A stretch of 31,285 bases of DNA, taken from Nitrospirota bacterium. Lineage in GTDB: Bacteria > JACPQY01. Position 1 is the stretch's first letter. The number at the start of each line of letters is the position of its first letter. Below, in pieces: positions 4,288-21,902 of this stretch. The position numbers and the translations under genes were made by a program. The notes under the pieces were generated by a model. The model ran no database searches. It worked only from the letters and a program-made list of their open reading frames with translations, and was not told the DNA's origin. The stretch spans positions 1-31,285 of the forward strand of contig JACPQY010000006.1 of NCBI GenBank assembly GCA_016190245.1, written 5' to 3'.

Positions 4288-5951
4288 GAACCTCCCCTGG
4301 AGCGTGGAGTGGCGTGTTCCTCCTCGCGGGCGTCATCTGCGTCTCCTGCAGCACGGACAGCTCGGCTCCCTTCGAGCCCGATGTTCGCATCGCGCTCGGC
4401 TCCGACGCGCCCGGTCGGCCCGTCGGTCAATTCATCTGTTGGAACGTGGGCCGACTCATTCGCTACGCCGGCGAGGGGGACCCGTTCCATCCTGAATGGC
4501 GAACGCCGGAGATGGTTTCGGTGGCGAACTGGCTCTCCCAGATCCAGCCGGGGAACGGCCGTCCGGTCCTAATGCGCTACTCCGGCCTCATGATTGACGG
4601 ATCGGTAGCGACCCGCGGCGGGACATACCCCGAAGACGGGTACCACTTCTGGCGCTACGTGGATCCCTCGCGAGAGGTCGAACCCGGCGACTACATGAGC
4701 GTGCCGCAGTACATGGCGTTCATCGAAGAGTCCGGGGGTGTGCCGCTCGTGACGCTGAATTTCGGGTCGGGGACGGCAAGCGAAGCGGCTGAGTATGTCC
4801 GGTTTCTCAATGCGACCGATCCAGGACCCTCTCTCGCGGCAGCAAGGGCGTTCTGGGGCAGAGGTGAACCCTACGACGTCCACCTCTTCGAGATCGGCAA
4901 CGAATCGTACTTCTCATTCAATACGGGCTACAGCCAGGATCACGCCTACGCGTACGCGAATCCGAAGGCGCCGAACGGGGGCGATCCCCTCTGGCATGGA
5001 AAGCCCACGTCGGATCCCGCGAACTACGCGGAGCGCGCGATGGAGTACATCCGGGCCGTGCAGACCGTCGAGCCGGACGCGCGTTTCCTCACCGTGTTCA
5101 ACCAGGCAAGCCTCCAGTACTGGGGTGGATTGGAGGCCACGACGCGGGCTCTCCAACCCCTGCTGACACACTCCTCCGTTGCAGGCGCCGTGGTCCACCA
5201 GTACAACCTCGACGACGCTCTCACCGTGGGGGTGCCGGGTGTGAGGCGGCCGGATTTCCTGATGGGATCGGCCGATGTCTTCGAGGAGAACTACGGGGCC
5301 CTCGCGTCGAAACTGGCATCGTTGCCTCGCGAGAATCCGGATCTCCGCATTGCCGTCACCGAACACCACGCGACAGCCCTCGGGGCGGATCTCGGTTTCT
5401 TCGATGCCCGAGACGACATCCTTCCCGCTCTCGCCGTCGCGGACAATCTCCTGCTCTTTCTGCGACTGGGCGTCGAGCCCGCGTGCGTTCACATGGACAT
5501 TCGTTTCGAGTCAACCATCGAGCCGTGGTTCAACCCGTTTTCTCTCGAGGCGGATGGCAGCGTCCGGCCGAAACCGCTCTACGAGGCCGTCAGGCTGGTG
5601 GCGGAGTACCTGCGGCAAGACGTCGTGGGAGGGGGCACGACGTCGGGCGAGCCACCGGAGCTGAGCTGGGTTGCCATGAAGGATGGAGCGAGTGAAGAGA
5701 TGAGTTTCCTCCTGCTCAATCGGGGGGCGGAGAACTCGCTCGCGGTCTCCGTGGAAGTCGGTGAGGGCTGGGCTCTGCATTCGGCTACGACGCTCGCTGG
5801 GCCTCCATCAGGCGCTTCGGATAGGCAGGAGAACATGGTGTTGCGCTCGCTTGATGCCCGACTCGATGGATCGGTCCTTGAGGTGGAGCTCCCGATTGGA
5901 AGCCTCTCGGGGATCGTGCTTCGCGCGAAGGGCAGGGGGATCGCGAGATGA
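4284..5951 (+). CDS. Clan GH-A (GH51-like) glycoside hydrolase lipoprotein
   Basis: The 555-residue product starts at ATG 4284, which overlaps the previous TGA (ATGA) and leads straight into a signal peptide (hydrophobic run GVFLLAGVICVSC, Cys22 as probable lipidation site). A longer frame exists upstream but would bury this signal. The motif EIGNE at 203-207 is typical of the acid/base glutamate of clan GH-A enzymes (E207), and VTEHH at 358-362 provides a probable nucleophile (E360). The spacing and layout resemble alpha-L-arabinofuranosidases of GH51, so an exo-acting glycosidase of side chains is the best guess. The C-terminal part from about residue 480 looks like an all-beta domain. It sits between two GH106-like genes and is probably cotranscribed with them. 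Confidence 0.78.
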   Translation: MRTSPGAWSGVFLLAGVICVSCSTDSSAPFEPDVRIALGSDAPGRPVGQFICWNVGRLIRYAGEGDPFHPEWRTPEMVSVANWLSQIQPGNGRPVLMRYSGLMIDGSVATRGGTYPEDGYHFWRYVDPSREVEPGDYMSVPQYMAFIEESGGVPLVTLNFGSGTASEAAEYVRFLNATDPGPSLAAARAFWGRGEPYDVHLFEIGNESYFSFNTGYSQDHAYAYANPKAPNGGDPLWHGKPTSDPANYAERAMEYIRAVQTVEPDARFLTVFNQASLQYWGGLEATTRALQPLLTHSSVAGAVVHQYNLDDALTVGVPGVRRPDFLMGSADVFEENYGALASKLASLPRENPDLRIAVTEHHATALGADLGFFDARDDILPALAVADNLLLFLRLGVEPACVHMDIRFESTIEPWFNPFSLEADGSVRPKPLYEAVRLVAEYLRQDVVGGGTTSGEPPELSWVAMKDGASEEMSFLLLNRGAENSLAVSVEVGEGWALHSATTLAGPPSGASDRQENMVLRSLDARLDGSVLEVELPIGSLSGIVLRAKGRGIAR

Positions 5952-8482
5952 TCGGCGTTCACCCCCACCCTAACCCTCCCCCGTCCCTTGCCGAGGACGG
6001 CATGGGAGGCATGGGACCACGAGCAGAAGCGGCCCAGGACGGGCCGCGATCAACGTGGTCGAGGGGGAGGGGATTTCAGTCGGTCCGCCACCGGTTCCCT
6101 TCCCCCCTCCGCGGGGGAAGGCCAGGATGGGGGGGCCTGTGTTGCTCCGGTCTTCTGGGGCTTGTCTTGGCCCTGGGATCATGCACCGACCGTTCGCCCG
6201 CGGTCGCCGACTTCGACCGATTCGAAACGCAAACCTGGCGTGATCCTCCGAACATGTTCAAGCCTTACGCTTGGTGGACGTGGCCCGGAGGGGCGGTGGA
6301 GGACGGGGAGATCGAGCGGGAATTGCGCCTCATCGCGGGGCAGGGGTTCGGCGGCGTCGAGATCATCCCCTATGCCATCGGGATGTCCCGGACCGAAATC
6401 GAGGCAGACCCCGCGATCGCCACGGTCGGCACGCGAAGCTTCTACTCGCGCGTGGCGACAGCCTGCCGAGTGGCTCGCGATCTTGGGCTCGAAGTTCACC
6501 TCATGCTGGGGAGCAGTTGGCCGCAGGGTGGGCCGTGGATTCGCGAGCATCCTGCTCTGCAGCTTGTCATGGCAGAGGCCCGTATCGCGGGGGGCACGCG
6601 GATTGACGCTGAGTTGCCGCGCCCCGGCCCGCCCGCCTTCTCCACGTTCCTGTCGGATGCCGGCTTCGGCTCCGTCCTGGCCCCATTCGACGAGAACCTG
6701 CGACTCGTATCCGTGGTGGGCGCGAGGGTGGCGAACGGTTCCGAAGAGCTTGACGAACTGGTGACTCTGACCGATGTGACGACGTACGTGCAGGGGAGCA
6801 GGATCGTGTGGGACGCGCCCGAGGGGGAGTGGCTCCTCGTCGCGGTGTACGAGAATCGCTCCGGACAGAGGGTGAACTTCGCGGCGTATCCGGGCCGTGC
6901 CGATGAGATGTTGGCCCTCGATCACCTGAATCGCGGCGGCATCGGCGAGTTTCTCGCGGGTGTGGGTGAACCCATGGTTGAAGCCCTTGGGCCATTCATC
7001 GGCAATCCACTCACCCATGTCTTCCTTGACAGCTTCGAGCTCGTCGGCAATCTGCCCTGGACTCGCGAATTCCCCGCGCGCTTCTCGGGTGAATTCGGAT
7101 ACGAGATCGCGCCGTTCCTGCCACTCCTTTTCAGGAAGTACGGAGAGGTGAAATATCTCTTCTTCATGCCCGACGATCCCATCTATCGCTCCGGAGAGAT
7201 CGGCCCGCGGGTACGGGAGGACTACGAAGCACTGCGAAGCCGTCTTTTCTTGGAAGAGTTCGTGCAGCCGCTCGTGGATTGGGCGCATTCGGCCGGCCTC
7301 CGCCTTCGCTACCAACCGCACGGCGGGTACGGCGACTACATTGAGGCGTACCAAATGGCTGACGTGCCCGAAACGGAGTCACTGTTCGCGGGCGGCACCT
7401 ACGAGTTTCTCAAGCTCGCTTCATCGGCGGCGCACGTCGCGGGGAAGCGGCGGGTGTCCTCTGAGACCATGAGTACCGGGTTGCCGCCACGCGCCCTGAG
7501 TCTGGAGGACTTCTACTTTCTCACCACCAAGGTTCTGGCCGCGGGCACCAACCAGATCTATCACTATCTGTACCCGTACCGATACGTCCGGGCCGACGGG
7601 CGGCGCTGGTATCCGTACGACACCGGGAACAAAGAGGTCCCGATCGTAGCCACGAGCTGGAGCGACGAGGATCATCCGGCGTGGTCTAGCTTCCCGGCTC
7701 TCAACTCTTTCAGCGCGCGTTTGTCGTACGCCCTCTCGCTGGGCAGCGATCGGGCCGACTTGGCCTGGCTCTATCCGCGGGGCGATTACCCGGAGAAGAT
7801 CGAGGCGTACCTCGGGCGCGCCCCGTTGGAGCCGGGGCAGGGGGAGTCCGCGGTGTCGGCGGCCCTTCGCGAGGCCGGATTCACGTTCGACTTCGTGAAT
7901 CGGTCCGGTCTGGAGAAGGCGGCAGTTCATTCGGGCCGATTGGTGATCGGAGCCGCAGAGTACGCGGGATTGCTGGTGACAGACCTGGAAGCAGTTACGC
8001 CGGCGATGATGGAGGCTCTCGAGAGGATCTCCTCGGGACGTGCGCCCATTGTGGTCGTGGGTGAGTTGTTTGGTCGGGCGTTGGGCTATGTTGAGGCGAC
8101 CCGTCGGGACGGGGAGGTGACCGCCGCCTCAGAGAGGCTGCGAGGCACGGTAGTGCGGGTCGAGAGCGCCGCCGAGCTGGGCCGAGCGCTCGCCGGCGCG
8201 GGCATCCTGCCCGCGATCTCAAGCGACGCTCAACACTTTCCTTTCCGAGTCGTCCGGCGGGCCTTGGACGGTGGCGAGGTCCAGGTCCTCTTCAACGAGA
8301 CGGGAGAGGCGCATTCCGCAGATCTCGCGCTTCAATCGGGTGCCGACTCATTCACCGTTCTGGATCCGGAGACCGGCCAAGAGATCGAGGGAGCAGTCGT
8401 CCGCGGCGCCGACGGCCGCCTCTCCGCCCTCGTGACCGTGCTGCCCCGACGGGCAGTGGTGCTGCTGGTCACCGAAGACTAG
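5948..8482 (+). CDS. GH106-like glycoside hydrolase lipoprotein, second paralogue
   Basis: The 844-residue protein is a full-length paralogue of the gene at the left edge. It has a canonical lipoprotein signal (LVLALGSC, Cys79), then the GH106-like catalytic region beginning around FKPYAWWTWPGG, with HGGYGDYIEAYQ and VPETES, a SSETMS block and NQIYHYLYPYRY. A beta-rich C-terminus follows, ending LPRRAVVLLV. ATG 5948 overlaps the previous TGA. The first 60 or so residues are encoded by a palindromic repeat (5957-6137), which is odd because it places an unusually long arm before the signal-peptide core; no conventional start lies between the repeat and the core apart from TTG 6167 inside the core. 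The role is probably alpha-L-rhamnoside hydrolysis at the outer face of the cell, inferred from the family only. Confidence 0.82.
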   Translation: MIGVHPHPNPPPSLAEDGMGGMGPRAEAAQDGPRSTWSRGRGFQSVRHRFPSPLRGGRPGWGGLCCSGLLGLVLALGSCTDRSPAVADFDRFETQTWRDPPNMFKPYAWWTWPGGAVEDGEIERELRLIAGQGFGGVEIIPYAIGMSRTEIEADPAIATVGTRSFYSRVATACRVARDLGLEVHLMLGSSWPQGGPWIREHPALQLVMAEARIAGGTRIDAELPRPGPPAFSTFLSDAGFGSVLAPFDENLRLVSVVGARVANGSEELDELVTLTDVTTYVQGSRIVWDAPEGEWLLVAVYENRSGQRVNFAAYPGRADEMLALDHLNRGGIGEFLAGVGEPMVEALGPFIGNPLTHVFLDSFELVGNLPWTREFPARFSGEFGYEIAPFLPLLFRKYGEVKYLFFMPDDPIYRSGEIGPRVREDYEALRSRLFLEEFVQPLVDWAHSAGLRLRYQPHGGYGDYIEAYQMADVPETESLFAGGTYEFLKLASSAAHVAGKRRVSSETMSTGLPPRALSLEDFYFLTTKVLAAGTNQIYHYLYPYRYVRADGRRWYPYDTGNKEVPIVATSWSDEDHPAWSSFPALNSFSARLSYALSLGSDRADLAWLYPRGDYPEKIEAYLGRAPLEPGQGESAVSAALREAGFTFDFVNRSGLEKAAVHSGRLVIGAAEYAGLLVTDLEAVTPAMMEALERISSGRAPIVVVGELFGRALGYVEATRRDGEVTAASERLRGTVVRVESAAELGRALAGAGILPAISSDAQHFPFRVVRRALDGGEVQVLFNETGEAHSADLALQSGADSFTVLDPETGQEIEGAVVRGADGRLSALVTVLPRRAVVLLVTED
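5957..6137. repeat. Roughly 180-bp element with imperfect terminal inverted repeats
   Basis: The left end (C-rich, CCCTAACCCTCCCCCG) and the right end (CGCGGGGGAAGGCCAGGATG followed by a G-run) are imperfect inverted repeats of about 22 bp. Further C-rich and G-rich blocks inside (around 6060-6075 and 6097-6117) can also pair. The layout resembles short non-autonomous palindromic elements common in high-GC genomes. It lies wholly inside the 5' coding region of the second GH106-like gene. Confidence 0.6.
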
Positions 8483-8489
8483 CCCGGAC

Positions 8490-8566
8490 AATTCATGTAC
8501 ATCTATCATGAATGACAGTGTGTACTTGTTGAGGCTGCGCTCGTTTCTTGGTGTAGTACATGAATT
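8490..8566. promoter_or_regulatory. AT-rich inverted repeat upstream of the paaX-like operon, possible operator
   Basis: AATTCATGTAC at 8490-8500 is repeated in perfect inverted orientation as GTACATGAATT at 8556-8566. A partial copy (TCATGAA, 8506-8512) lies between. The 8483-8776 gap holds no convincing gene and is visibly richer in A+T than its surroundings over its first 90 bases. The site could bind the PaaX-like regulator encoded downstream, but that is inference. Confidence 0.4.
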
Positions 8567-8741
8567 ATCCGCCCGAAGGGCGATGCAAGGACCTGATGAA
8601 ATTCCGTTCATCGGGCTGGCCCCGACTCCGCTGGATTCGAGAATTCAGGAATAATCGGGGCTGGCCGAGTCGCGCCGTGCGGCGTGCTGGCGTGGCGCTG
8701 GGCGGACGGGCGGCACCTCGCACGCGTCTTGGTCTATGCAC

Positions 8742-8770
8742 TTGACAGCCTATTACACATCCCGTACGAT
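8742..8770 (+). promoter_or_regulatory. Sigma-70-type promoter of the paaX-like gene, leaderless layout
   Basis: A perfect -35 box TTGACA (8742-8747) is followed by a 17-bp spacer and TACGAT (8765-8770, four of six consensus positions). The ATG of the paaX-like gene starts at 8777, only 6 nt after the -10 box, so transcription would begin at or next to the start codon. Confidence 0.7.
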
Positions 8771-8776
8771 CTTCCC

Positions 8777-9694
8777 ATGTCCGTAATATCCCCCCCGTCG
8801 CTTGTCCTTGACGTTCTCTCCGTGGCGGACCCGGGGGCCGTCCCGGTGCGCTTTCTCATTCGGGCGGCCTCTCTCTTCGCGATCACGGAGAATGCGACCC
8901 GCGTGGCCCTGTCGCGCCTCGTCGCCGCGGGGAAGATCGAGGGTGCACCCGATGGCGAGCCGGCCGCCTATGGTCTCAGCCCGTCCACGCGCGCCCTCAA
9001 CCGTTACGTTCGCGCCGCCTGTCTCGAACCGCCCGTGCGGTCGTGGGACGGAAGCTGGTTGCAGGTGCTGCTGACCGTGCCCGAGCGGGAGCGCTCGTCG
9101 CGCCGCCGGATGAAAGACGCGCTCACCGCAGTTCGGCTTGCCTCACCCTATCGCGGCGTCTGGATGCGACCCTCCAATCTGGCGTTGAGCGCCGACGATC
9201 TAAGGCGTAGCCTTCATGAACTTGGCGTAACATCTGGAATGGACGTATTATTATCACGTTTTCAATCTCGCCGAAGAGAGCGGGAACTTGCGGCGGGACT
9301 GTGGCAATTGAAGGATGTCTCAATGCGCTTGCAAGGCGTGTTGGCGCGTCTCAGAGGGAGTCTGCGCGCCCTCGACGCTATGCCGCGGGAACGGGCGCTG
9401 GCAGAGACATTTGCCTTCGGAGGCGAGGTGATCCGGTTGCTCTACCACGATCCCCTCCTGCCGCAGGAGTTGCTCCCGTCCGGCTGGGCGGGGCCCGAGG
9501 TGCGTTCGTTGTTCGGAGAATACAACGGGCGGGGCTTGGCCCTCTGGGGGGAGTTCTGGCTGGAATCGTGCCCGACTGTGCCTGCTACTGTCCTCCGCCC
9601 GCTGCGGGGAAGCTCCACGCGGCGTCTGCTCGCTGAGGCAGGCGTGGCCCACACTCTCGGTGCCCCACCCTTGGCAGCGGGAGGCTCGGCGTGA
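8777..9694 (+). CDS. PaaX-family transcriptional regulator
   Basis: The 305-residue protein has an N-terminal winged-helix region of PaaX type (ENATRVALSRLVAAGKIE, about residues 40-57) and the characteristic C-terminal block DPLLPQELLPSGW near residue 235. The best-known member represses phenylacetate catabolism in response to phenylacetyl-CoA; here the ligand is unknown. ATG 8777 was chosen over upstream starts because a TTGACA-N17-TACGAT promoter ends 6 nt before it. The TGA overlaps the GTG of the radical SAM gene by 4 bp, and an acyl-CoA dehydrogenase follows. This suggests a small operon in which the regulator senses an acyl-CoA related to that enzyme. Confidence 0.85.
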   Translation: MSVISPPSLVLDVLSVADPGAVPVRFLIRAASLFAITENATRVALSRLVAAGKIEGAPDGEPAAYGLSPSTRALNRYVRAACLEPPVRSWDGSWLQVLLTVPERERSSRRRMKDALTAVRLASPYRGVWMRPSNLALSADDLRRSLHELGVTSGMDVLLSRFQSRRRERELAAGLWQLKDVSMRLQGVLARLRGSLRALDAMPRERALAETFAFGGEVIRLLYHDPLLPQELLPSGWAGPEVRSLFGEYNGRGLALWGEFWLESCPTVPATVLRPLRGSSTRRLLAEAGVAHTLGAPPLAAGGSA

Positions 9695-12205: not shown

Positions 12206-14356
12206 ATGACGGGCCCGAACGAATCGCGTGATCGAGGTAGCGTCGGGTCGTTCGACGTCGAGCGGTTGGAATCCGATCTCTGGGAGGCCGCGGACAACCT
12301 CCGCGCCAACTCGAAGCTCACCTCCAGCGACTACTTCATGCCGGTGCTGGGCGTGATCTTCCTGCGCCACGCGGCCAATCGCTTCGACGCGGCCCAGCGG
12401 CAGATCGCGGCCGACCAGGCGAGCGGCAAGATGCCGAAGCGCAGGGTGCTCCCGGCCGACTACATCGCGCGCCGCTCGCTCTACCTGCCGGAGCAGGCCC
12501 GCTACGACTGGATCATGCAGCAGGCGGCTGTCAGTGGCGCCGACCTGCCAAGGCTCGTCACCGAGGCCATGACTGCCATCGAGGCCGAGTTCGAGCCGCT
12601 TCAGGGCGTCCTGCCCAAGGACTACGGCATCTTCGAGACCAAGGTGCTCGAAGACCTCATGCGCCTGTTCAACAGCGCGCAGATCAAGCAGGCCACCGGC
12701 GACGTCTTCGGCCGCATCTACGAGTACTTCCTGGCCAAGTTCTCGATCCAGAAGGCGCACGACAACGGCGAGTTTTTCACGCCGTCCTCGATCGTGCAGA
12801 CCATCGTCAACGTCATCGAGCCCGACCACGGCACGGTGTTCGACCCGGCCTGCGGCTCGGGCGGCATGTTCGTGCAGTCCAGCCACTTCATCGAGCACGA
12901 GGGCGGCGACACGGCGAAGAAGGTGGTCTTCTACGGCCAGGAGAAGAACCGCGACACCATCCGCCTCGCCAAGATGAACCTCGCGGTGCACGGGCTGGAA
13001 GGGAAGATCGCCGAGGCCATCACCTACTACCAGGACGAGCACAGCCTCGCCGGCAAGTGCGACTTCGTGATGGCCAATCCCCCCTTCAACGTGGACCTCG
13101 TCGATGCCGAGCGCATCAAGGGCGACCCGCGGTTACCCTTCGGCCTGCCGGGTGTGAACAAGGCCAAGAAAGTCGCGAACGGCAACTACCTCTGGATTTC
13201 CTACTTCTGGAGCTACTTGAGCAAGAAGGGACGGGCGGGATTCGTTATGTCCTCGCAGGCCTCCAGCGCCGGGCACGGCGAGAAGGAGGTGCGCCGGAAG
13301 ATCGTTGAGACCGGCGACGTGGACGTGATGATCTCGATCCGCTCAAACTTCTTCTACACCCGCACCGTCCCCTGCGAGCTGTGGCACTTCGACCGGGCGA
13401 AGCCCGCCGAGCGCAAGGACAAGGTGCTGATGCGCGATGCGCGCAACGTCTACCGCAAGGTCACGCGCAAGATCTACGACTTCTCGCCCGAGCAGATGCA
13501 GAACCTCGCCGCCATCGTCTGGCTCTACCGCGGCGAACGTCAGCGCTTTCTCGGTCTGGTGAAGGACTACCTTGGGCGCGTCTGCGCCGAAAGCGCCGCC
13601 GTCCCCGCGATGCTCGCACCATTCGCCACCACGCTCGCGGACCTGCGCGGACGCTTCGATGCGCTGGCCGTGGCGGTGGCGAAGCACACCTCACTGGACG
13701 CCGACAAGAAGCAGGCGCTCGGCGGCGCCGTCACCGAACTCCGCGAGGGCGCCACGCTCTACGAAGCCGACGCGAAGAAGCTCCTTGCGAGGCTCGCCGC
13801 CTTCGGCCAGAAGTACGCCAAGGCGCTGCCCGACAAGAACGACGCTCAGCATGCGGCGCGCAAGGCGTTCGACCCCCACGCAGACGCGATCCGCGGACTC
13901 GTCAAACAGGTGGACCTGCTCTACAAACTCGTCGCGCGCGTGGCGGACCTGAGCGCCGAGCTGGCGGCCGACGATGCGATCTCCGCCGCCTACGACCGCC
14001 GCACGACGGGTCGGCTGGTGAAGCAGCTCGACGAGGAGCGCAAGGCCGCCGTCGAGCAGCTCAAGCACGCCGTCTATTTTCACCGGCAGGTAGCGTGGCT
14101 ACAGGACCGCTTCCCGAAGGCCGAACTCGAAGCCGTGCCGGGCCTGGTGAAGCTCGTGGACCGCAAAGAGATCGAGGGAGCCGACTGGAGTCTCACGCCC
14201 GGCCGCTACGTGGGCGTCGCCCCGCCGGAAGAAGACGAGGGCTTCGACTTCGAGCAAACCCTGCGCGACATCCACACCGAGCTGGCCGACCTCAACAAGG
14301 AGGCGGTGGGTTTGGCGGCAAAGATTCAGGAGAACTTCGAGGATCTGGGGATATGA
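12206..14356 (+). CDS. hsdM: Type I restriction-modification system methyltransferase subunit HsdM
   Basis: The 716-residue protein is an N6-adenine methyltransferase of a type I system. It shows the HsdM N-terminal helical region (SDLWEAADNLRANSKL...YFMPVLGVIFLR), the SAM-binding motif DPACGSGG (213-220) and catalytic NPPF (291-294). A long charged, probably coiled-coil C-terminal part follows (about 400-690), and the tail DIHTELADLNKEAV...FEDLGI ends the protein. It would act with HsdS to methylate the bipartite target and with HsdR to cleave. ATG 12206 is preferred; GTG 12179 in frame is an alternative, and the longer frame upstream has no family similarity. The TGA overlaps the next ATG (ATGA). 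The 3' end is duplicated at 15498-15590. Confidence 0.93.
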   Translation: MTGPNESRDRGSVGSFDVERLESDLWEAADNLRANSKLTSSDYFMPVLGVIFLRHAANRFDAAQRQIAADQASGKMPKRRVLPADYIARRSLYLPEQARYDWIMQQAAVSGADLPRLVTEAMTAIEAEFEPLQGVLPKDYGIFETKVLEDLMRLFNSAQIKQATGDVFGRIYEYFLAKFSIQKAHDNGEFFTPSSIVQTIVNVIEPDHGTVFDPACGSGGMFVQSSHFIEHEGGDTAKKVVFYGQEKNRDTIRLAKMNLAVHGLEGKIAEAITYYQDEHSLAGKCDFVMANPPFNVDLVDAERIKGDPRLPFGLPGVNKAKKVANGNYLWISYFWSYLSKKGRAGFVMSSQASSAGHGEKEVRRKIVETGDVDVMISIRSNFFYTRTVPCELWHFDRAKPAERKDKVLMRDARNVYRKVTRKIYDFSPEQMQNLAAIVWLYRGERQRFLGLVKDYLGRVCAESAAVPAMLAPFATTLADLRGRFDALAVAVAKHTSLDADKKQALGGAVTELREGATLYEADAKKLLARLAAFGQKYAKALPDKNDAQHAARKAFDPHADAIRGLVKQVDLLYKLVARVADLSAELAADDAISAAYDRRTTGRLVKQLDEERKAAVEQLKHAVYFHRQVAWLQDRFPKAELEAVPGLVKLVDRKEIEGADWSLTPGRYVGVAPPEEDEGFDFEQTLRDIHTELADLNKEAVGLAAKIQENFEDLGI
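14264..14356 (+). repeat. hsdM 3'-end direct repeat, left copy
   Basis: The last 93 bp of hsdM, including its stop codon, recur at 15498-15590 in the same orientation with 11 differences (88% identity). The two copies bracket the DUF1016 nuclease gene, and each ends in the same kind of ATGA overlap with the following gene. Confidence 0.85.
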
Positions 14357-15480
14357 AGAAGCCGAGGAAGACCACTCCCGCGAACAGCGCCGGGCGGGCG
14401 TCGCGCGGGCGAACGAGGGCAGATGCCGCCTTCCCGGCCCCTCCGTCCCGCGCGGGTTTGCCCCATGGGTACGCAACGGTCCTGGCGGAGATCAAGCAGC
14501 GCATCCAGGCCGGAAGACTGCGTACGGTCATGGCCGCCAACGCGTCCATGGTCAGGCTCTATTGGGACATTGGGCGGCTGATCCTCGAACGCCAACAACG
14601 CGAGGGCTGGGGAGCCAAGATCATCGACCGCCTTTCCGCCGATCTGCGCGAGGCCTATCCCGACATGAGCGGTCTGTCGCCGCGCAACCTCAAATACATG
14701 CGCGCCTTTGCCGCCGCCTGGCCGGATTCGGCAATTGTGCAACGGGTCATTGCACAAATACCCTGGCGGACAAATATCGCCTTGTTGGACAAGTTGGACG
14801 ATTCCGATACCCGGATGTGGTACGCCGAGAAAGCGATTGAACATGGATGGTCTCAGCCTATCCTATGCTTGCAAATCGAGACCCGTCTCCACGAACGCCA
14901 GGGCAAGGCGATCAGCAACTTCGCCCTCGCGCTTCCGCCCGCCGAATCCGACATGGCTGCCCAGGTTTTCAAGGCCCCCTACCTGTTCGATTTTCTCGGC
15001 ACCGCCGATCCGCGCCGCGAGCGGGATGTGGAGCAGGCGCTGGTGGATCATATCCAGCGCTTCCTGCTGGAACTCGGCGCCGGTTTCGCTTTCGTCGGAC
15101 GGCAGGTCCATCTCGAAGTCGGCGGCACGGACTTCTATCTTGACCTTCTTTTCTACCATCTGAAGTTGCGCCGCTACGTGGTGGTGGAACTGAAAGCCGT
15201 GCCGTTCGATCCCGGATTCGTCGGCACGATGAACCTGTACCTCTCGGCGGTGGATGACCTCCTCCGCCACCCCGACGACCAGCCGGCCATCGGCCTTCTC
15301 CTCTGCCGCGCCAAGAGCAAACTCGTCGTCGAATACGCCCTGCGCGGCTTCGACAGACCCATCGGCGTGGCCGAATGGAAAACTAAAATCACCCGGACAC
15401 TTCCCGAGGAACTCAAGGGCAGTCTGCCGACCGTCGATGAGATCGAGGCGGAACTCGCGCGGAACAGGGATGGGAAATGA
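14353..15480 (+). CDS. DUF1016/YhcG-like PD-(D/E)XK nuclease domain protein
   Basis: The 375-residue protein has the two parts of the DUF1016 (YhcG) family: an N-terminal helical region (about 40-200) with ANASMVRLYWDIGRLI and SPRNLKYMRAFA, and a C-terminal nuclease fold (about 205-345). The PD-(D/E)XK residues appear as FYLDLLFYH (D264) and VVVELK (E279, K281). Homologues often sit inside type I RM loci and are suspected to act on DNA in defence, but the exact role is not established. A basic, low-complexity stretch covers residues 1-35. ATG 14353 overlaps the hsdM TGA, and the stop overlaps ATG 15477. The flanking hsdM-tail repeats indicate that the gene was inserted between hsdM and hsdS. 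Confidence 0.88.
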   Translation: MKKPRKTTPANSAGRASRGRTRADAAFPAPPSRAGLPHGYATVLAEIKQRIQAGRLRTVMAANASMVRLYWDIGRLILERQQREGWGAKIIDRLSADLREAYPDMSGLSPRNLKYMRAFAAAWPDSAIVQRVIAQIPWRTNIALLDKLDDSDTRMWYAEKAIEHGWSQPILCLQIETRLHERQGKAISNFALALPPAESDMAAQVFKAPYLFDFLGTADPRRERDVEQALVDHIQRFLLELGAGFAFVGRQVHLEVGGTDFYLDLLFYHLKLRRYVVVELKAVPFDPGFVGTMNLYLSAVDDLLRHPDDQPAIGLLLCRAKSKLVVEYALRGFDRPIGVAEWKTKITRTLPEELKGSLPTVDEIEAELARNRDGK

Positions 15481-15590
15481 ACCGCTCACAAGCCTCGCGC
15501 GACATCCACACCGACCTGGCCGATCTCGACAAGGAAGCGGTAGATTTGGCGGCGAAGATTCAGGAGAACTTCGAGGAGTTGGGGGCATGA
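15477..15590 (+). pseudogene. 37-codon duplicate of the hsdM C-terminal tail, bridging ORF
   Basis: This short frame encodes MNRSQAS followed by RDIHTDLADLDKEAV and ends FEELGA, a near copy of the HsdM C-terminus. Its ATG overlaps the stop of the DUF1016 gene, and its TGA overlaps the ATG of hsdS at 15587, so ribosomes could pass from gene to gene without a gap. It is probably the leftover of an hsdM 3' end, from duplication or recombination. A function as a coupling peptide for hsdS translation is possible but unproven. Confidence 0.75.
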
Positions 15591-16753
15591 GCTGGCGCAC
15601 CGCACACCTGGGAGATGTGCTGACGCTGAAACGTGGTCACGACTTGCCCGACTCTCAGCGGCAGGACGGCGACGTGCCGGTTGTTTCCTCTTCTGGTATT
15701 ACCGGGCAGCACAATGAATCGAAGGCAAGAGCCCCAGGCGTCGTGACCGGACGCTATGGCACGCTGGGCGACGTGTTCTACATTGAGCAAGACTACTGGC
15801 CGCTGAACACTGCGCTTTATGTCGTGGACTTCAAGGGTAATCACCCACGCTTTGCCGCCTATTTTCTGCAGAACGTTCTGCGGGACTATCAGAGCGACAA
15901 GGCGGCCGTGCCCGGCGTTAACCGCAACGTCCTGCATGAACTAAAGGTGCGGTGCCCAGATACCACTTTGCAAGCACACATCGCCGACATCCTCTCCGCC
16001 TACGACGACCTGATCGAAAACAACCGGCGGCGTATGGCGCTGCTGGAGGAGGTGGCGCGGCAGCTCTACCGCGAGTGGTTCGTCCGCCTACGGTTCCCCC
16101 GCCTTCGCCAAGGCTACGGGGGGCAGGCCGGCCATGAGCACGCCCGCATCAACAACGGCGTGCCGGAGGGATGGGAGCGAACACGGATTGGGGATGTCGC
16201 CGACTGTGTTGGCGGTGGGACGCCTCCGACCTCGGTTTCAAACTACTGGGAGGACGGCGAAGTCACTTGGGTTACGCCTACCGATGTCACCAGGAATGCC
16301 CATTTCGTCTTGCTCGACTCCGAGAAGAAAATCACCGAAGCAGGACTTCAGAACAGTTCTGCAAAGCTCGTCCCGCCGCATGCCGTCTTAATGACCAGCC
16401 GTGCATCCGTCGGGTTCTTCGCCGTCGTCGGCAGAGCGGCCTGCACGAACCAAGGCTTTATCTCTATCGTGTCGCACGATCCGATACTCTGGCCCTACTT
16501 TCTGTTTCACCTCAGTGAGCGCGTTGAAGAGATCCGTGCAATGGGGAGCGGAAGTACGTATCCAGAAGTCAGTCGCGGCAAGTTCCGGGAGCTTGAGGTG
16601 CTGCTGCCCAAGCACTCTCTGGCCACTGCCTTCTGCGACCAGGCGATGGTCCTACTGAGCCAGATTCGGATCCTCAAGCAGCAAAACGATAAACTCCGTG
16701 CCGCCCGCGACCTGCTCCTGCCGCGCCTGATGAGCGGGGAACTGGCGGTCTAA
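15587..16753 (+). CDS. hsdS: Type I restriction-modification specificity subunit HsdS
   Basis: The 388-residue protein has two target-recognition domains, each followed by a helical conserved region. TRD1 begins SWRTAHLGDVLTLKRG and the first helix ends LLEEVARQLYREWFVRLRF (about 165). TRD2 begins near VPEGWERTRIGDVADCVGGG, and the last helix is near LKQQNDKLRAARDLLLPRLM. The length is normal for a two-TRD HsdS. It sets the DNA target of the HsdM/HsdR complex. ATG 15587 overlaps the stop of the duplicated hsdM tail. Residues 172-181 (RLRQGYGGQA) are encoded by a 30-bp palindromic insert in the linker after RFP and keep the frame open. The TAA at 16751 ends this transcription unit or leads into the AbiE genes. 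Confidence 0.92.
   Translation: MSWRTAHLGDVLTLKRGHDLPDSQRQDGDVPVVSSSGITGQHNESKARAPGVVTGRYGTLGDVFYIEQDYWPLNTALYVVDFKGNHPRFAAYFLQNVLRDYQSDKAAVPGVNRNVLHELKVRCPDTTLQAHIADILSAYDDLIENNRRRMALLEEVARQLYREWFVRLRFPRLRQGYGGQAGHEHARINNGVPEGWERTRIGDVADCVGGGTPPTSVSNYWEDGEVTWVTPTDVTRNAHFVLLDSEKKITEAGLQNSSAKLVPPHAVLMTSRASVGFFAVVGRAACTNQGFISIVSHDPILWPYFLFHLSERVEEIRAMGSGSTYPEVSRGKFRELEVLLPKHSLATAFCDQAMVLLSQIRILKQQNDKLRAARDLLLPRLMSGELAV
16096..16123. repeat. Palindromic repeat inserted in the hsdS central linker
   Basis: CCCCCGCCTT (16096-16105) pairs with AAGGC plus CGGGGG (16110-16122) around a CGCC loop with a 2-nt TA bulge. The insert (16100-16129) adds ten residues between RFP and GHEH, a junction expected to be continuous in related HsdS proteins. 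From memory it resembles a repeat family widespread in environmental genomes that encodes RQGYGGQ-like peptides. Confidence 0.6.
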
Positions 16754-16815: not shown

Positions 16816-17619
16816 GTGGTGAAGCGGCGGCTCGGCAATCTCGAACGGCAGCTTTTCGCCTACGCACAGTTGCGGAAGGCCCGCGAGCTGCGGACCGGCG
16901 ACCTCACGAAGCCACTCGGGATCACGGCCAAGCAGGAGCGCGAACTCTATAGCCGGCTGGCCAGGGCCGGTCTCATTGCACAGGTCCGCCGCGGGTTGTA
17001 TCTGGTTCCACGCGAATTGCCGATCGGCGGAGCCTGGACGCCGGACGAGGCGCTGGTGCTGAACACCCTGGTGGCTGATCGCGGGGGCCGCTACCAGATC
17101 TGCGGCCTCAACGCCTTCAATCGCTACGGCTTCAGCAATCAGGTTCCTAACCGCGTCTACGCTTACAACAACAGGCTCTCGGGAGAACGGACAATCGGCG
17201 CCATCACCCTCATGTTGATCAAGGTCGCTGACGCACGCCTCGGTGACACCCAAGAAGCCACGACGCGCGAGGGCCTGGTCGTCGTGTATTCGTCCCGTGT
17301 GCGGACCCTCGTTGATGCGGTGTACGACTGGGCGCGCTTCGGCAGTCTGCCACGCGGCTACGCGTGGATCACTCGCGACCTCGCCGAACGGCGGGTGACC
17401 CCCGCCGCGCTCGTTGAAACCACGCTCCGGTACGGCGACGTGGGCACTCTGCGACGCATGGGCGCCCTGCTGGAAAAGACAGGCGTCAGCGCGAGGGCCA
17501 TGCGGAAGCTGGAGAGCGCGCTACCCAAATCGACCAGCACCATTCCCTGGATCCCCACCAAGCCCAAGCGGGGGACGCTCAACCGCCGATGGGGACTGAT
17601 CATGAACGGCGAGATCTGA
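16816..17619 (+). CDS. AbiEi-family antitoxin / transcriptional regulator
   Basis: The 267-residue protein has an N-terminal winged-helix region (LTKPLGITAKQERELYSRLARAGLIAQVRRGLYL, about 30-63), as in AbiEi antitoxins that repress their own promoter. A central domain (PDEALVLNTL through VRTLVDAVYDWARFGSLP, about 75-180) and a helical C-terminus follow. It is paired with an AbiEii nucleotidyltransferase 2 nt downstream, the classical order of a type IV toxin-antitoxin and abortive-infection module. GTG 16816 and GTG 16819 are both possible starts; the promoter spacing favours 16819 as the first base of the transcript. It lies between hsdS and hsdR. Confidence 0.88.
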   Translation: MVKRRLGNLERQLFAYAQLRKARELRTGDLTKPLGITAKQERELYSRLARAGLIAQVRRGLYLVPRELPIGGAWTPDEALVLNTLVADRGGRYQICGLNAFNRYGFSNQVPNRVYAYNNRLSGERTIGAITLMLIKVADARLGDTQEATTREGLVVVYSSRVRTLVDAVYDWARFGSLPRGYAWITRDLAERRVTPAALVETTLRYGDVGTLRRMGALLEKTGVSARAMRKLESALPKSTSTIPWIPTKPKRGTLNRRWGLIMNGEI

Positions 17620-17621
17620 CG

Positions 17622-18488
17622 ATGCCAATCCGCTGGCACGCCGACGACCCCGGCTTGCTGGTACAAGCGATCGAGCTCACCGCTCGCCGAACCGGCTTCC
17701 AACCCCGCCTCGTCGAAAAGGACTACTTTTGCAGTGTGGTGCTCGAGTACCTCGCGGCGTGCGATGCCGACTTGACCTTCAAGGGAGGCACCAGTCTCGC
17801 GAAGGTCCACGGCAGCTTCTATCGGTTGAGCGAGGATCTGGACTTCAGCATTTCGACTCCGCTGGACGCGTCCCGCAAGGAGCGCAGCCGACGAGCCGAG
17901 CCGCTCAAGCTGATAGTCGGAGACGTGCCCAAGCGTCTACCCGGGTTGCGGATCCTCGAACCGCTTCGCGGGGCCAATGAGTCCACGCAGTACAACGCCA
18001 TCGTCGGCTACGAGTCTCTGCTCGATTCTCACATCGAACCGATCGGCATCGAGGTAGGGCAGCGGGAACCGACTCTCACCGCGCCGCACCGGGGATCGTC
18101 GCGGACCATGCTTCTCAACCCAGCCAACGAGAGGCCGTTGCTTGATGCCTTTCCGGTGACGTGCCTCTCGCACCAGGAAACCATGGCAGAGAAGCTCCGC
18201 GCTGCCCTCACCCGAAAGGACGTCGCCATTCGCGATTTCTTCGACCTGGACTACGCGGTGCGGAAGCGAGCCTTGGATACCAGGGATCGGGCACTCCTGG
18301 ACCTGCTGCGACGGAAGCTCGAAGTTCCCGGGACCGGACGTGTGGATGTTTCGCCCGATCGAGTAGCACAGTTGCGGCAACAGTTGGCGACAGACCTTCA
18401 GCCGGTGCTGCGTGAGCAGGACTTCGCCGAGTTCGACTTGGAGCGCGCCGTGAGGTTGCTTGACGCCGTTGTACGGACACTCGGATAG
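17622..18488 (+). CDS. AbiEii/AbiGii-family nucleotidyltransferase toxin
   Basis: The 288-residue protein shows the family motifs in order: KDYF (33-36), GGTSLAK (55-61) and EDLDF (71-75), the Gly-Ser and acidic motifs of a DNA polymerase beta-like nucleotidyltransferase. A downstream ETMAEKLRAAL helix and the RDFFDLDY segment complete the pattern. Members transfer nucleotides to RNA targets such as tRNA and arrest growth when phage infect, with AbiEi neutralising the effect. ATG 17622 follows the abiEi stop by 2 nt. The TAG stop shares one base with GTG 18488, just before hsdR, so this pair and hsdR may be one transcript. All visible catalytic motifs are intact. Confidence 0.9.
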   Translation: MPIRWHADDPGLLVQAIELTARRTGFQPRLVEKDYFCSVVLEYLAACDADLTFKGGTSLAKVHGSFYRLSEDLDFSISTPLDASRKERSRRAEPLKLIVGDVPKRLPGLRILEPLRGANESTQYNAIVGYESLLDSHIEPIGIEVGQREPTLTAPHRGSSRTMLLNPANERPLLDAFPVTCLSHQETMAEKLRAALTRKDVAIRDFFDLDYAVRKRALDTRDRALLDLLRRKLEVPGTGRVDVSPDRVAQLRQQLATDLQPVLREQDFAEFDLERAVRLLDAVVRTLG

Positions 18489-18493
18489 TGCCG

Positions 18494-19723
18494 ATGATCA
18501 CCGACGTCAACAGCGAGGACCGGCTGGTCCAGCAGACCTTCGCGGACCACCTCCGCGACCAGCTTGGCTGGGAGAGCGTCTACGCCTACAACGAGGAGAC
18601 CTTCGGGCCGAACGGCACGCTGGGGCGGACGTCGGAGCGGGACGTCGTCTTGGTGCGCGACCTTCGGGCGGCCTTGGAGCGGCTCAACCCGGACCTGCCG
18701 GAGCCGGCGCGGGAACTCGCGATCGAGAAGCTCACGCAAACCGACTTAGCCCGCTCCCTGCTCCAGCACAACCGCGAGTTCTATGCCTTCATCCGCGACG
18801 GCGTGCCGGTGGAGTGGCGCGACGCCGCCGGGGAGACCCAGCATGCCCGCGCGAGGGTGATCGACTTCCGCACCGTCAGCCGAAACCGGTTTCTGGCGGT
18901 GCGCGAGCTGAAGCTCCAGGGCGTGCGCGTCCCTCACTACAACCGCCGGGCGGATCTCATCTGCTTCGTGAACGGGCTGCCGCTGGTCTTCATCGAGTTG
19001 AAGGCGGTCTATCGGAACATCCGCGCCGGCTTCGACGAGAACCTGACCGACTACCTTTCCGAGCACAGCATCGCCCACGCCTTCCATCACAACGCCTTCT
19101 TGGTAGTGAGCAACGGCGACCAGGCCCGCTATGGTTCGATCACCAGCAAGTGGGAGCACTTCGTCGAGTGGAAGCGCAATACCGAAAAGGACAAGGCGCG
19201 CCTGGACGCCGAGGCACTTCTGGACGGCATGCTGGCCAGGGAGCGGCTGCTCGACTCGGTCGAGAACTTCATCCTCTTCGACGACAGCCGCGCCGGCGGC
19301 AGGCGCAAGATCGTCGCGCGCAATCAACAGGTGCTTGGGGTAAACAACGCCGTCGAGTCGGTCCTGCGGCAGGAGGGCTTGAAACGACGGTACCCCGCGC
19401 GTGAGCAGCGCGTAGAGTACCGCGTTCCGACGGCCGAATTGGCCGAGGCCGCGGACGAATCTCCGAGATTGGTCTATTCCGCTGCGGAATCCTCAGGCCG
19501 CCTCGAAGGGTTTGCCTTGCTCCTCCCGAAGAGGGCACACCCCGACCTGGGGCGCCTGGGCGTGTTCTGGCACACGCAGGGAAGCGGGAAGTCCTATTCA
19601 ATGGTGTTCTTCGCGGAGAAGGTCCGCCGGGTCGTGCCCGGCAACTTCACCTTCCTGGTGGTGACCGACCGCGAGGATCTGGACGACCAGATCTGGCGGA
19701 CGTTCTGGCTGCGGCGTGACTGA
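18494..19723 (+). CDS. hsdR: Type I restriction endonuclease HsdR, N-terminal part (frameshifted)
   Basis: The 409-residue fragment carries the PD-(D/E)XK nuclease domain (ADLICFVNGLPLVFIELK; D154, E168, K170) and the start of the helicase motor, with Walker A HTQGSGKS (360-367) and VVTDREDLDDQIWRTF. The frame then reads WLRRD and stops at 19721, where homologues continue with a GCGV-like segment directly into the next frame. GTG 18488 overlapping the abiEii stop is an alternative start. Without the second half the ATPase motor is incomplete, so restriction should fail unless ribosomes shift frame or the assembly has an indel. It could still give a truncated nuclease protein. Confidence 0.85.
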   Translation: MITDVNSEDRLVQQTFADHLRDQLGWESVYAYNEETFGPNGTLGRTSERDVVLVRDLRAALERLNPDLPEPARELAIEKLTQTDLARSLLQHNREFYAFIRDGVPVEWRDAAGETQHARARVIDFRTVSRNRFLAVRELKLQGVRVPHYNRRADLICFVNGLPLVFIELKAVYRNIRAGFDENLTDYLSEHSIAHAFHHNAFLVVSNGDQARYGSITSKWEHFVEWKRNTEKDKARLDAEALLDGMLARERLLDSVENFILFDDSRAGGRRKIVARNQQVLGVNNAVESVLRQEGLKRRYPAREQRVEYRVPTAELAEAADESPRLVYSAAESSGRLEGFALLLPKRAHPDLGRLGVFWHTQGSGKSYSMVFFAEKVRRVVPGNFTFLVVTDREDLDDQIWRTFWLRRD

Positions 19724-21902
19724 TGCGCAGACTCCGCGCGCCGGCTCGGGAGAGGAGCTGCAGCGGATCCTCGGCGAGAACCACCGGTTCGTCTTCAGCC
19801 TGATCCACAAGTTCAACCAGCCGGTCACCGAGCCCTACAGCGTGCGCGACGACATCATCGTCGTTTCGGACGAGGCGCACCGGACGCAGGCGGGCAAGTT
19901 CGCGCGAAACATGCGGCTGGCGCTGCCCAACGCCTCCTTCATCGGCTTCACCGGCACGCCGCTCTTCAAATACGACGAGCGGACGCGCCGCATCTTCGGC
20001 GAGTACATCTCGCGCTACGACTTCCGGCGCTCCGAGCAAGACCAGTCCACGGTCAAGCTCATCTGCGAGAACCGGGGCGAGAAGCTGGGGATCGCCCGCC
20101 TGGACCTGAACGATCGGATTGCCGACGCCATCGAGCGCGCGGAGCTTGACCCCGACCAGGTCGCGCTGCTGGAGAAGCTGCTCGGCAAGGACTACGAGGT
20201 GATCACGGCCGACGACCGGCTGGACAAGCTGGCCGACGATTTCGTGCAACACTGCTCCACCCGCTGGCAGACCGGGAAGTCGATGCTCGTGTGCATCGAC
20301 AAAGTCACCTGCGCGCGGATGTTCCAGCGCATCGAGCCGCGCTGGAAGGCGAAGCTTGCCCGACTTCAGGTGCTCATCCCAATCAAGGAAGGGGAGCTGG
20401 AAGCTTCGGGCGACCCCGACGCGCGGGAACGATTGGGCAGGGATCTCGATGAACTACGCGGCCAGGCACAGTGGATGGAGAGCACGATCATCGAGATCGT
20501 CATCAGCGAAGCACAGAACGAGGTGCGCGACTTCCAGAAGTGGGGCTTCGACATCATCCCGCACCGCGTGGTGATGAAGGCCGGGTTCCAGACTCCCGAC
20601 GGCAAGCGGGTGCCGGAGGAAGACGCCTTCGAGGACCCGCAGCATCCGTTCCGGGTCGCGATCGTCTGCGCGATGTGGCTGACGGGCTTCGACGTCGAGT
20701 GCCTGGCGACGCTCTACATCGACAAGCCGATGAGAGCCCACAACCTGATGCAGGCCATCGCCCGCGCCAACCGCGTGTTTCCGGGCAAGGACTGCGGCGT
20801 GATCGTGGACTACAACGGCATGCTCAAGAGCCTGCGCGAAGCGCTGGCGCAGTACGCCCTCGGGGATGAGGATGACGGCGGCGGAGGCGGCATCGTGGCT
20901 CCCATCGAGGAGCTGGTAGTGGCCCTGGTGCAGGCCATCGAAGCCGCGGAGAAGCACCTGCTCGGGCTTGGCTTCGAAGCGACCCGACTTCACGGCACCA
21001 CGGGGTTTGAGCGCATTGAAGCCCTGCGTGACGCCGTGGACGCGCTCTACACCTCGGACGAGGCCAAGCGCCGGTTCGAGATCATGGCCCGGCAGGTGTT
21101 CATTCGCTTCAAGGCGCTGCTGATGGAACCGAGCGCCCTGGCGTATGCCGAGCGGCACGACAACCTCGAAGCCATCTACAAGAAGCTGCAGGACCGGCGT
21201 GACACGGCCGATGTGACCGAGGTGCTCAAGGAGTTGCACCGGATCGTCAACGAGGCCATCCGAGCCGCGGCGCCGGGCGGCGACCACGCCGAAGGGCTCA
21301 AGGTGGACCTGAGCAAGATCGACTTCGAGAAGCTACGTGGCGAGTTCGCGAGCAAAGTCCGCCGCAAGCACGCGGCGTTGCAGGACATTCGTGTCCTCGT
21401 CGAACAGAAGCTCGCCGACATGCTCGCCCGCAACCCGATGCGGATGGACTACTACAGAAAGTACCATGAGATCATCGCGGACTACAACCGCGAGAAGGAC
21501 CGGGCGACGGTTGAGGCCACCTTCGCTCAGCTTGTTGCCCTCGCGGCGAGCCTCGACGCCGAGCAGAAGCGGGCAGCGGAGGAAGGGCTCTCGGACGAAG
21601 AACTGGCGCTCTTCGACCTTATGTTCAAGGACGACATCAGCAAGTCGGATCGGGAACGGCTGAAGCAGGCAAGCCGCGGGCTCCTCGCGTCTCTGCAGAA
21701 CCTCATCCAGTCCATGCGCGAATGGACCAAGAACGCAGCGACCCAGGCCGAAGTGGAAATGTTCATCCTCAACACTGTGTGGGAGTCGCTTCCGAGGCCG
21801 CCGTTCACCGATGACGAAACCGAGGCGGCCGCGAGTCGGGTCTATGACTACGTTTGGGAACGCAGCGCGAGCGGCCGTTTCCCCGTCACGAAGGCGCAGT
21901 AA
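19716..21902 (+). CDS. hsdR: Type I restriction endonuclease HsdR, C-terminal part (frameshifted)
   Basis: The frame opens with GTG 19716, overlapping the end of the first half by 8 bp, and contains the rest of the HsdR motor. Motif II appears as VVSDEAH, motif III as FTGTP, and motif VI as MQAIARANRVFPGKDCG. A long helical C-terminal region (about 380-728) follows that contacts HsdM. Together with 18494-19723 it would form one protein of about 1,140 residues, the usual HsdR length. No Shine-Dalgarno sequence was noticed before GTG 19716, so independent translation would rely on coupling. The simplest reading is a 2-base deletion, or an equivalent +1 change, near 19705-19710. Confidence 0.87.
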   Translation: MTDAQTPRAGSGEELQRILGENHRFVFSLIHKFNQPVTEPYSVRDDIIVVSDEAHRTQAGKFARNMRLALPNASFIGFTGTPLFKYDERTRRIFGEYISRYDFRRSEQDQSTVKLICENRGEKLGIARLDLNDRIADAIERAELDPDQVALLEKLLGKDYEVITADDRLDKLADDFVQHCSTRWQTGKSMLVCIDKVTCARMFQRIEPRWKAKLARLQVLIPIKEGELEASGDPDARERLGRDLDELRGQAQWMESTIIEIVISEAQNEVRDFQKWGFDIIPHRVVMKAGFQTPDGKRVPEEDAFEDPQHPFRVAIVCAMWLTGFDVECLATLYIDKPMRAHNLMQAIARANRVFPGKDCGVIVDYNGMLKSLREALAQYALGDEDDGGGGGIVAPIEELVVALVQAIEAAEKHLLGLGFEATRLHGTTGFERIEALRDAVDALYTSDEAKRRFEIMARQVFIRFKALLMEPSALAYAERHDNLEAIYKKLQDRRDTADVTEVLKELHRIVNEAIRAAAPGGDHAEGLKVDLSKIDFEKLRGEFASKVRRKHAALQDIRVLVEQKLADMLARNPMRMDYYRKYHEIIADYNREKDRATVEATFAQLVALAASLDAEQKRAAEEGLSDEELALFDLMFKDDISKSDRERLKQASRGLLASLQNLIQSMREWTKNAATQAEVEMFILNTVWESLPRPPFTDDETEAAASRVYDYVWERSASGRFPVTKAQ

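Follow-up and report, generated by a model that had tools for sequence, protein, structure and literature searches.

Copies of the hsdM 3′ end behind inserted nuclease genes as possible start-signal bridges to hsdS in type I restriction-modification operons

Results

The window, a stretch of 31,285 nucleotides of contig JACPQY010000006.1 from a Nitrospirota bacterium, contains a type I restriction-modification (RM) operon composed of hsdM, a nuclease gene, an ORF of 37 codons, hsdS, an abiE-like gene pair and hsdR (Table 1). The 5′ limit given for hsdM is the point from which homology was found; the frame is open from 11999 and the start codon is uncertain. Family searches detected both a DUF1016_N and a YhcG_C domain in the product of the second gene, a putative nuclease with a D(x)n-ExK stretch from residue 260. 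The hsdR gene is split within 19700-19730, where its first ORF runs to 19723 and another opens at 19716 in a different frame, owing to a frameshift that is either genuine or derived from the assembly.

Table 1. Features of the type I operon, in positions of the window
Feature	Position	Strand	Evidence
hsdM, type I methyltransferase subunit	12257..14356	+	N6_Mtase 1.3e-71, HsdM_N 3.3e-16; PADLOC MTase_I PDLC03035 2e-238
Left repeat copy: hsdM 3′ end, predicted C-terminal helix	14255..14356	+	AlphaFold2 helix 665-696/699
DUF1016/YhcG PDDEXK nuclease gene (nucA), ATGA overlap with hsdM	14353..15480	+	YhcG_C 4.5e-61, DUF1016_N 2.3e-42; PADLOC PDC-S02 1.1e-145
37-codon tail ORF, ATGA overlaps with nuclease gene and hsdS	15477..15590	+	sequence
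Right repeat copy	15489..15590	+	88/102 identical to 14255-14356
hsdS start region from tail copy: Shine-Dalgarno-like GAGGAG, spacer, ATGA	15573..15590	+	sequence
hsdS, specificity subunit, two target-recognition domains	15587..16753	+	Methylase_S 2.4e-32, two stretches
abiEi/abiEii-like pair between hsdS and hsdR, second accessory module	16816..18488	+	AbiEii 2.9e-28; AbiEi PADLOC 2.9e-23
hsdR, two overlapping frames near 19716-19723	18488..21902	+	HSDR_N 3.9e-39, SWI2_SNF2 1e-36

The last 102 bp of hsdM recur without gaps behind the nuclease gene (86% identity), and over the last 93 bp the two copies agree at 82 positions (88.2%), confirming the repeat reported in the preliminary description. 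In a 10-kb scan this was by far the longest and best repeat, the next families being 25-45 nt long at 60-80% identity. The left copy terminates in GAGGATCTGGGGATATGA, which holds the start of the nuclease gene. As the right copy lies in the same frame as hsdM, the 37-codon ORF, MNRSQASRDIHTDLADLDKEAVDLAAKIQENFEELGA, encodes a second version of the 33 C-terminal residues of HsdM. ATGA overlaps at 14353, 15477 and 15587 join the four ORFs, so that the chain hsdM-ATGA-nuclease-ATGA-37-codon ORF-ATGA-hsdS could be read directly and is intact, as had been claimed. The genome of the window contains a single hsdM of this family, the tail of which matches elsewhere only the copy; a second hsdM in the same genome as the source of the tail was therefore rejected. 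An assembly artefact was also rejected as unlikely: there are 14 mismatches between the 102-bp copies, and the layout recurs in independent genomes (e.g. L040, L002, L225, L246 and L233).

Related loci were collected from 47 nuclease relatives in genome contigs and by a search for the HsdM C-terminus that covered about 1,780 genomes from five groups and focused on genomes to which the nuclease relatives had led. Sixty regions were extracted and oriented; most loci were metagenome assemblies. With counts hand-curated from the listed outputs and hsdS starts set from alignments, the window's HsdM family comprised 28 empty loci, in which hsdM was directly joined to hsdS, and 29 occupied loci, in a sample centred on groups already known to carry this family. 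A copy of the hsdM tail before hsdS or before the next module was observed in 17 of the 29 occupied loci (the window, L002, L040, L042, L048, L200, L216, L221, L222, L223, L225, L230, L233, L236, L243, L246 and L247) and in 0/28 empty loci (Fisher 5e-7), none of the latter showing an hsdM-end copy that finished at a stop. The other occupied loci (L204, L211, L212, L215, L228, L235, L237, L238, L240, L241, L248 and L250) were classed as tail-free; in L211, L215 and L235 the last 15-30 nt are still present. In L002, L042 and L048/L227 there were two or three modules, and every one of them ended in a tail of its own. The empty single-copy sites included L193, with an HsdM 82% identical to that of the window. 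A near-identical pair of genomes with and without an insert was not found among the surveyed loci, and the insertion event itself was thus unseen.

The most alike repeat copies in the survey were 93-94% identical (third copy in L042). In this locus (5464-9469, the same as L224) the hsdM end is followed by nucA, a tail, nucB, a tail, a longer copy of the hsdM end and nucA again, which looks like a fresh tandem duplication of the hsdM end plus nucA. ORFs resembling Y1/REP-type transposases were present at the hsdM-hsdS junction in L216 (286-894), L204 (310-756), L241 (3099-3569) and L243 (3410-3865; all coordinates with hsdM on the + strand), and that of L216, named by eye, continues in frame into the hsdM tail. 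Frames of 100-101 codons, in which a nuclease remnant is fused to the hsdM tail, were observed in L227 (7182-7790 in reverse-complement coordinates) and L223 (801-1106). They are of similar size and build, come from two archaeal-class genomes and may encode independent short proteins. In L048 (7510-7760) an ORF beginning at the nucB stop reads via a shifted tail onward in the hsdS frame, suggesting that tail and hsdS may be fused there.

The preliminary description had named related loci with the nuclease gene at this site and no tail duplication as evidence that would count against it. Such cases occur, so that its interpretation is contradicted in part: L250/L003, L010, L253 and L254 carry a tail-free nuclease between hsdM and hsdS, and L228, L238 and L240 are further tail-free occupied loci. 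Duplication of the hsdM tail, still seen in 17/29, is thus common but not obligatory. L253 and L254 are closed Deinococcus plasmids with the order hsdM-nuclease-hsdS and short overlaps; in L255, likewise without a tail, an ISL3 transposase follows the nuclease gene, and in L250/L003 the bridge is a remnant of a second nuclease. No tail was found on a closed plasmid within the window's HsdM family, the plasmid searches with tail peptides giving only one place per record.

Beyond that of the window, further METHYLTRANSFERASE families (L007, L015, L043, L047, L027, L016 and L177) copy their own, unrelated M tails. The M proteins of L007, L015, L043 and L047 end in ..LGYG where read in frame; those of L027 and L016 are open frames of 916 and 1,048 aa, respectively. 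The order in L043 is nuclease, tail, a nucleotidyltransferase/HEPN-like (MNT-HEPN) pair, tail and hsdS, and L177 contains a RhuM-like insert with a copy of its own M tail (inserts in L043, L177 and L216 were named by eye from the sequence, not by family search). The occurrence of tails in several M families and behind MNT-HEPN, RhuM and Y1 inserts indicates that the effect extends beyond one nuclease or one M family. The proposal that the locus offers a model for how accessory nucleases become modules of type I operons is supported, the case generalizing to accessory modules in such operons. No relatives of the L015 nuclease were found in viral contigs.

Start signals of the tails were compared by Shine-Dalgarno energy, i.e. 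the energy predicted for pairing between the anti-Shine-Dalgarno sequence and the stretch preceding the start codon. The medians were -9.0 kcal/mol for tails, -8.1 for native hsdM ends and -3.0 for random ATGA (p=1e-12). The decayed tails of L042, L222, L230 and L233 have lost much of the peptide but kept the Shine-Dalgarno sequence and ATGA. The tail start overlapped the upstream stop by 4 nt in 14 of 17 tails (p=5e-9), and two of the remaining three (L043 and L027) overlapped when viewed by eye; the claim that stop-start coupling was kept holds beyond the window. At loci with nuclease remnants (L223, L227, L236 and L237) the stop-start chain was unbroken through to hsdS. Overlaps of 4 nt were found in related operons after hsdM in 55/61, after hsdS in 36/50 and after hsdR in 3/34 cases; being common in these operons generally, they make the chain alone weak evidence. 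A null model with shuffled inserts was too lenient for the chain, as shuffling destroys long ORFs, and the remnant loci and the hsdS-hsdR interval were used as controls instead.

The hsdS-hsdR interval exceeded 300 bp in 35 of 50 related loci, making it another frequently used insertion site, but one where end copies are nearly absent. A copy of the hsdS end was present in 3/35 loci with inserts there, compared with 17/29 at the hsdM-hsdS junction (p=2.5e-5), and hsdS-tail copies were rejected as an equal phenomenon because of this rarity. The window's abiEi/abiEii-like insert likewise showed no hsdS-tail copy.

The nuclease was 59-80% identical across loci, also across M families, in the pairs printed. 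Among 11 nucA loci the tails fitted their own M gene better than under permuted assignment (p=1e-4). Tails resemble the M gene of their own locus, whereas the nuclease is common to different M families; the tail is therefore locally derived rather than carried along with the nuclease, and a nuclease-borne tail was rejected on this ground. The preliminary description had raised the question of whether the right copy resembles a different hsdM allele more than its own. This is the case in L040 and L002, where the right copies are nearer to the alleles of L196 or L195 than to their own, whereas in the window the values are close (identity 0.878 with the window's own hsdM end, 0.889 with that of L202, the best other). 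Within the window's HsdM family, allelic recombination or gene conversion may have followed the duplication.

Discussion

Type I operons often hold extra defence genes. To our knowledge, it has not been clearly described how a gene can enter between translationally coupled genes without breaking them. The overlapping hsdM and hsdS genes of EcoKI show translational coupling (PMC3510504). For the loci described here we consider it probable that insertion leaves a local duplication of the hsdM end, which restores the ribosome-binding site of hsdS and its stop-start coupling. In the empty operon, the hsdM end holds the hsdS ribosome-binding site (GAGGAG..GGGG) together with the overlapping start ATGA, and an insert that neither duplicated nor replaced this end would sever hsdS from its translation start. 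The accessory DUF1016 nuclease gene would have entered the operon at the hsdM/hsdS junction with a duplication of the hsdM 3′ end, and ribosomes finishing hsdM could then restart on the nuclease gene, on the 37-codon tail ORF and finally on hsdS. We infer that the tail ORF is translated and that translation of hsdS depends on the tail. The earlier suggestion of a ribosome bridge fits the Shine-Dalgarno sequences and overlapping starts kept in the tails. Presumably, the copy goes back to a target duplication of about 100 bp that accompanied the insertion, with allelic recombination or gene conversion possibly following later.

Ordinary gene gain into an operon combined with chance, the tail being a role-less by-product of tandem duplication, would be in keeping with the existence of tail-free loci and with the tandem re-duplication of the hsdM end plus nucA in L042. 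Such a by-product would hardly be frequent at the hsdM-hsdS junction and rare at the equally used hsdS-hsdR site, nor would decayed copies be expected to retain Shine-Dalgarno strength and overlapping starts, or tails to outlast the nuclease at remnant loci, and we regard this explanation as very improbable. The tail ORF might instead encode a functional peptide, a free copy of the C-terminal helix of HsdM that would dock on HsdS or HsdM, either modulating assembly or linking the nuclease to the complex. In an AlphaFold2 model of HsdM (19 sequences, mean pLDDT 78) the last helix, 665-696 of 699 residues, follows a low-confidence linker, and the copy begins at codon 666-667, matching this predicted helix. 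Tail ORFs are similarly sized in unrelated M families (mostly 23-43 aa), the helical tail of HsdM adjoins HsdS, and for type IB systems it has been suggested that HsdS acquired a duplicated HsdM tail (PMC3510504). Pairwise dN/dS between the hsdM end and the tail was 0.06-0.4 for most well-kept copies (about 0.06-0.1 in L040, L002 and L243, 0.4 in the window), rising to 0.65 in L048. The excess of synonymous over non-synonymous change in the best-kept tails and the helix match mean that a selected peptide would also fit. Low dN/dS may, however, reflect the history of the sequence as part of an hsdM allele, and the tails of L002 and L040 differ from each other by 6 synonymous and 6 non-synonymous codons. 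Besides the decayed tails named above, the first tail of L002 and that of L246 are shortened to 12-16 residues, with Shine-Dalgarno sequence and ATGA kept. Truncation and decay indicate that the peptide is not generally needed, and a peptide function appears unlikely as the general explanation.

The preliminary description had attributed the arrangement to homologous recombination between hsdM 3′ ends or to duplication. Its second part stands insofar as tail duplication accompanies insertion; its first part fails for unrelated M families, since the same nuclease occurs in these with each family's own tail, which recombination between hsdM 3′ ends cannot explain. Within the window's HsdM family such recombination may still have occurred, given the right copies of L040 and L002. 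A related possibility is that nuclease and tail form a cassette exchanged among hsdM loci, the flanking tails serving as substrates for homologous recombination. The flanking direct repeats and multi-module arrays speak for it, as do the proximity of the L040 and L002 right copies to foreign hsdM alleles and the different states of the same site among relatives of the window's hsdM (L193 empty, L203 with nucA, L202 with a nucB-type nuclease, L200 with another insert). Such a cassette leaves unexplained why one nuclease is shared by M families that are unrelated, tails included; many tails are too decayed for recombination, and neither a circular form nor a recent exchange was seen; we think it quite unlikely that the unit moves in this way. 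More broadly, and tentatively, the hsdM-hsdS junction might be a recombinase-free cassette platform, where defence genes are added, stacked and lost, each behind a tail copy that serves as homology arm and portable ribosome-binding bridge. A coupled gene pair would then carry a changing payload with hsdS expression kept.

Target duplications of about 100 bp have been described at RM insertions (Nobusato 2000; Furuta 2010, reviewed in PMC3874152), and the window resembles these long target duplications in that an RM-linked gene is flanked by a direct repeat derived from the target (here 102 bp, 86% identical). RM systems are described in the review as moving as units; the window differs in that a single accessory gene lies within a type I operon and in that the copy supplies the start signal for the gene that follows it in the operon. 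Accessory defence genes within hsd operons are also known from prrC in EcoprrI (PMC12707154) and tgvAB in the Vibrio VPI-2 operon (PMC11411939). A tail duplication is not mentioned in the portions of these accounts that deal with the genes, while most hsdM-hsdS inserts in the window's family have a tail copy. The type IB HsdS proposal (PMC3510504) likewise involves duplicated DNA of the HsdM C-terminal tail at the hsdM-hsdS border; there the copy joins HsdS, whereas here it forms a separate short ORF behind the insert (only in L048 does it apparently run on). No description of copies of hsdM or methyltransferase ends behind inserted genes as start-signal bridges was found in the open-access literature.

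A local copy of the upstream gene end that restores a start signal would be a simple and testable answer to how a gene can enter between coupled genes, and its recurrence in many genomes looks like a general way for hsd operons to acquire extra defence genes. Copies of methyltransferase ends provide a searchable signature for embedded defence modules, including very short ORFs that are overlooked, and could help to date the gain and loss of modules. 'Orphan' ORFs of 30-40 codons before hsdS may be regulatory scars rather than genes.

RhuM was rejected as a general second example, as a tail was present only in L177 and absent in the closed plasmids L290-L295. In L264, where no RM gene was seen near it, a RhuM gene has an aroE-like gene on one side and a duplicate of the 3′ end of that aroE-like gene on the other, perhaps the same kind of insertion.
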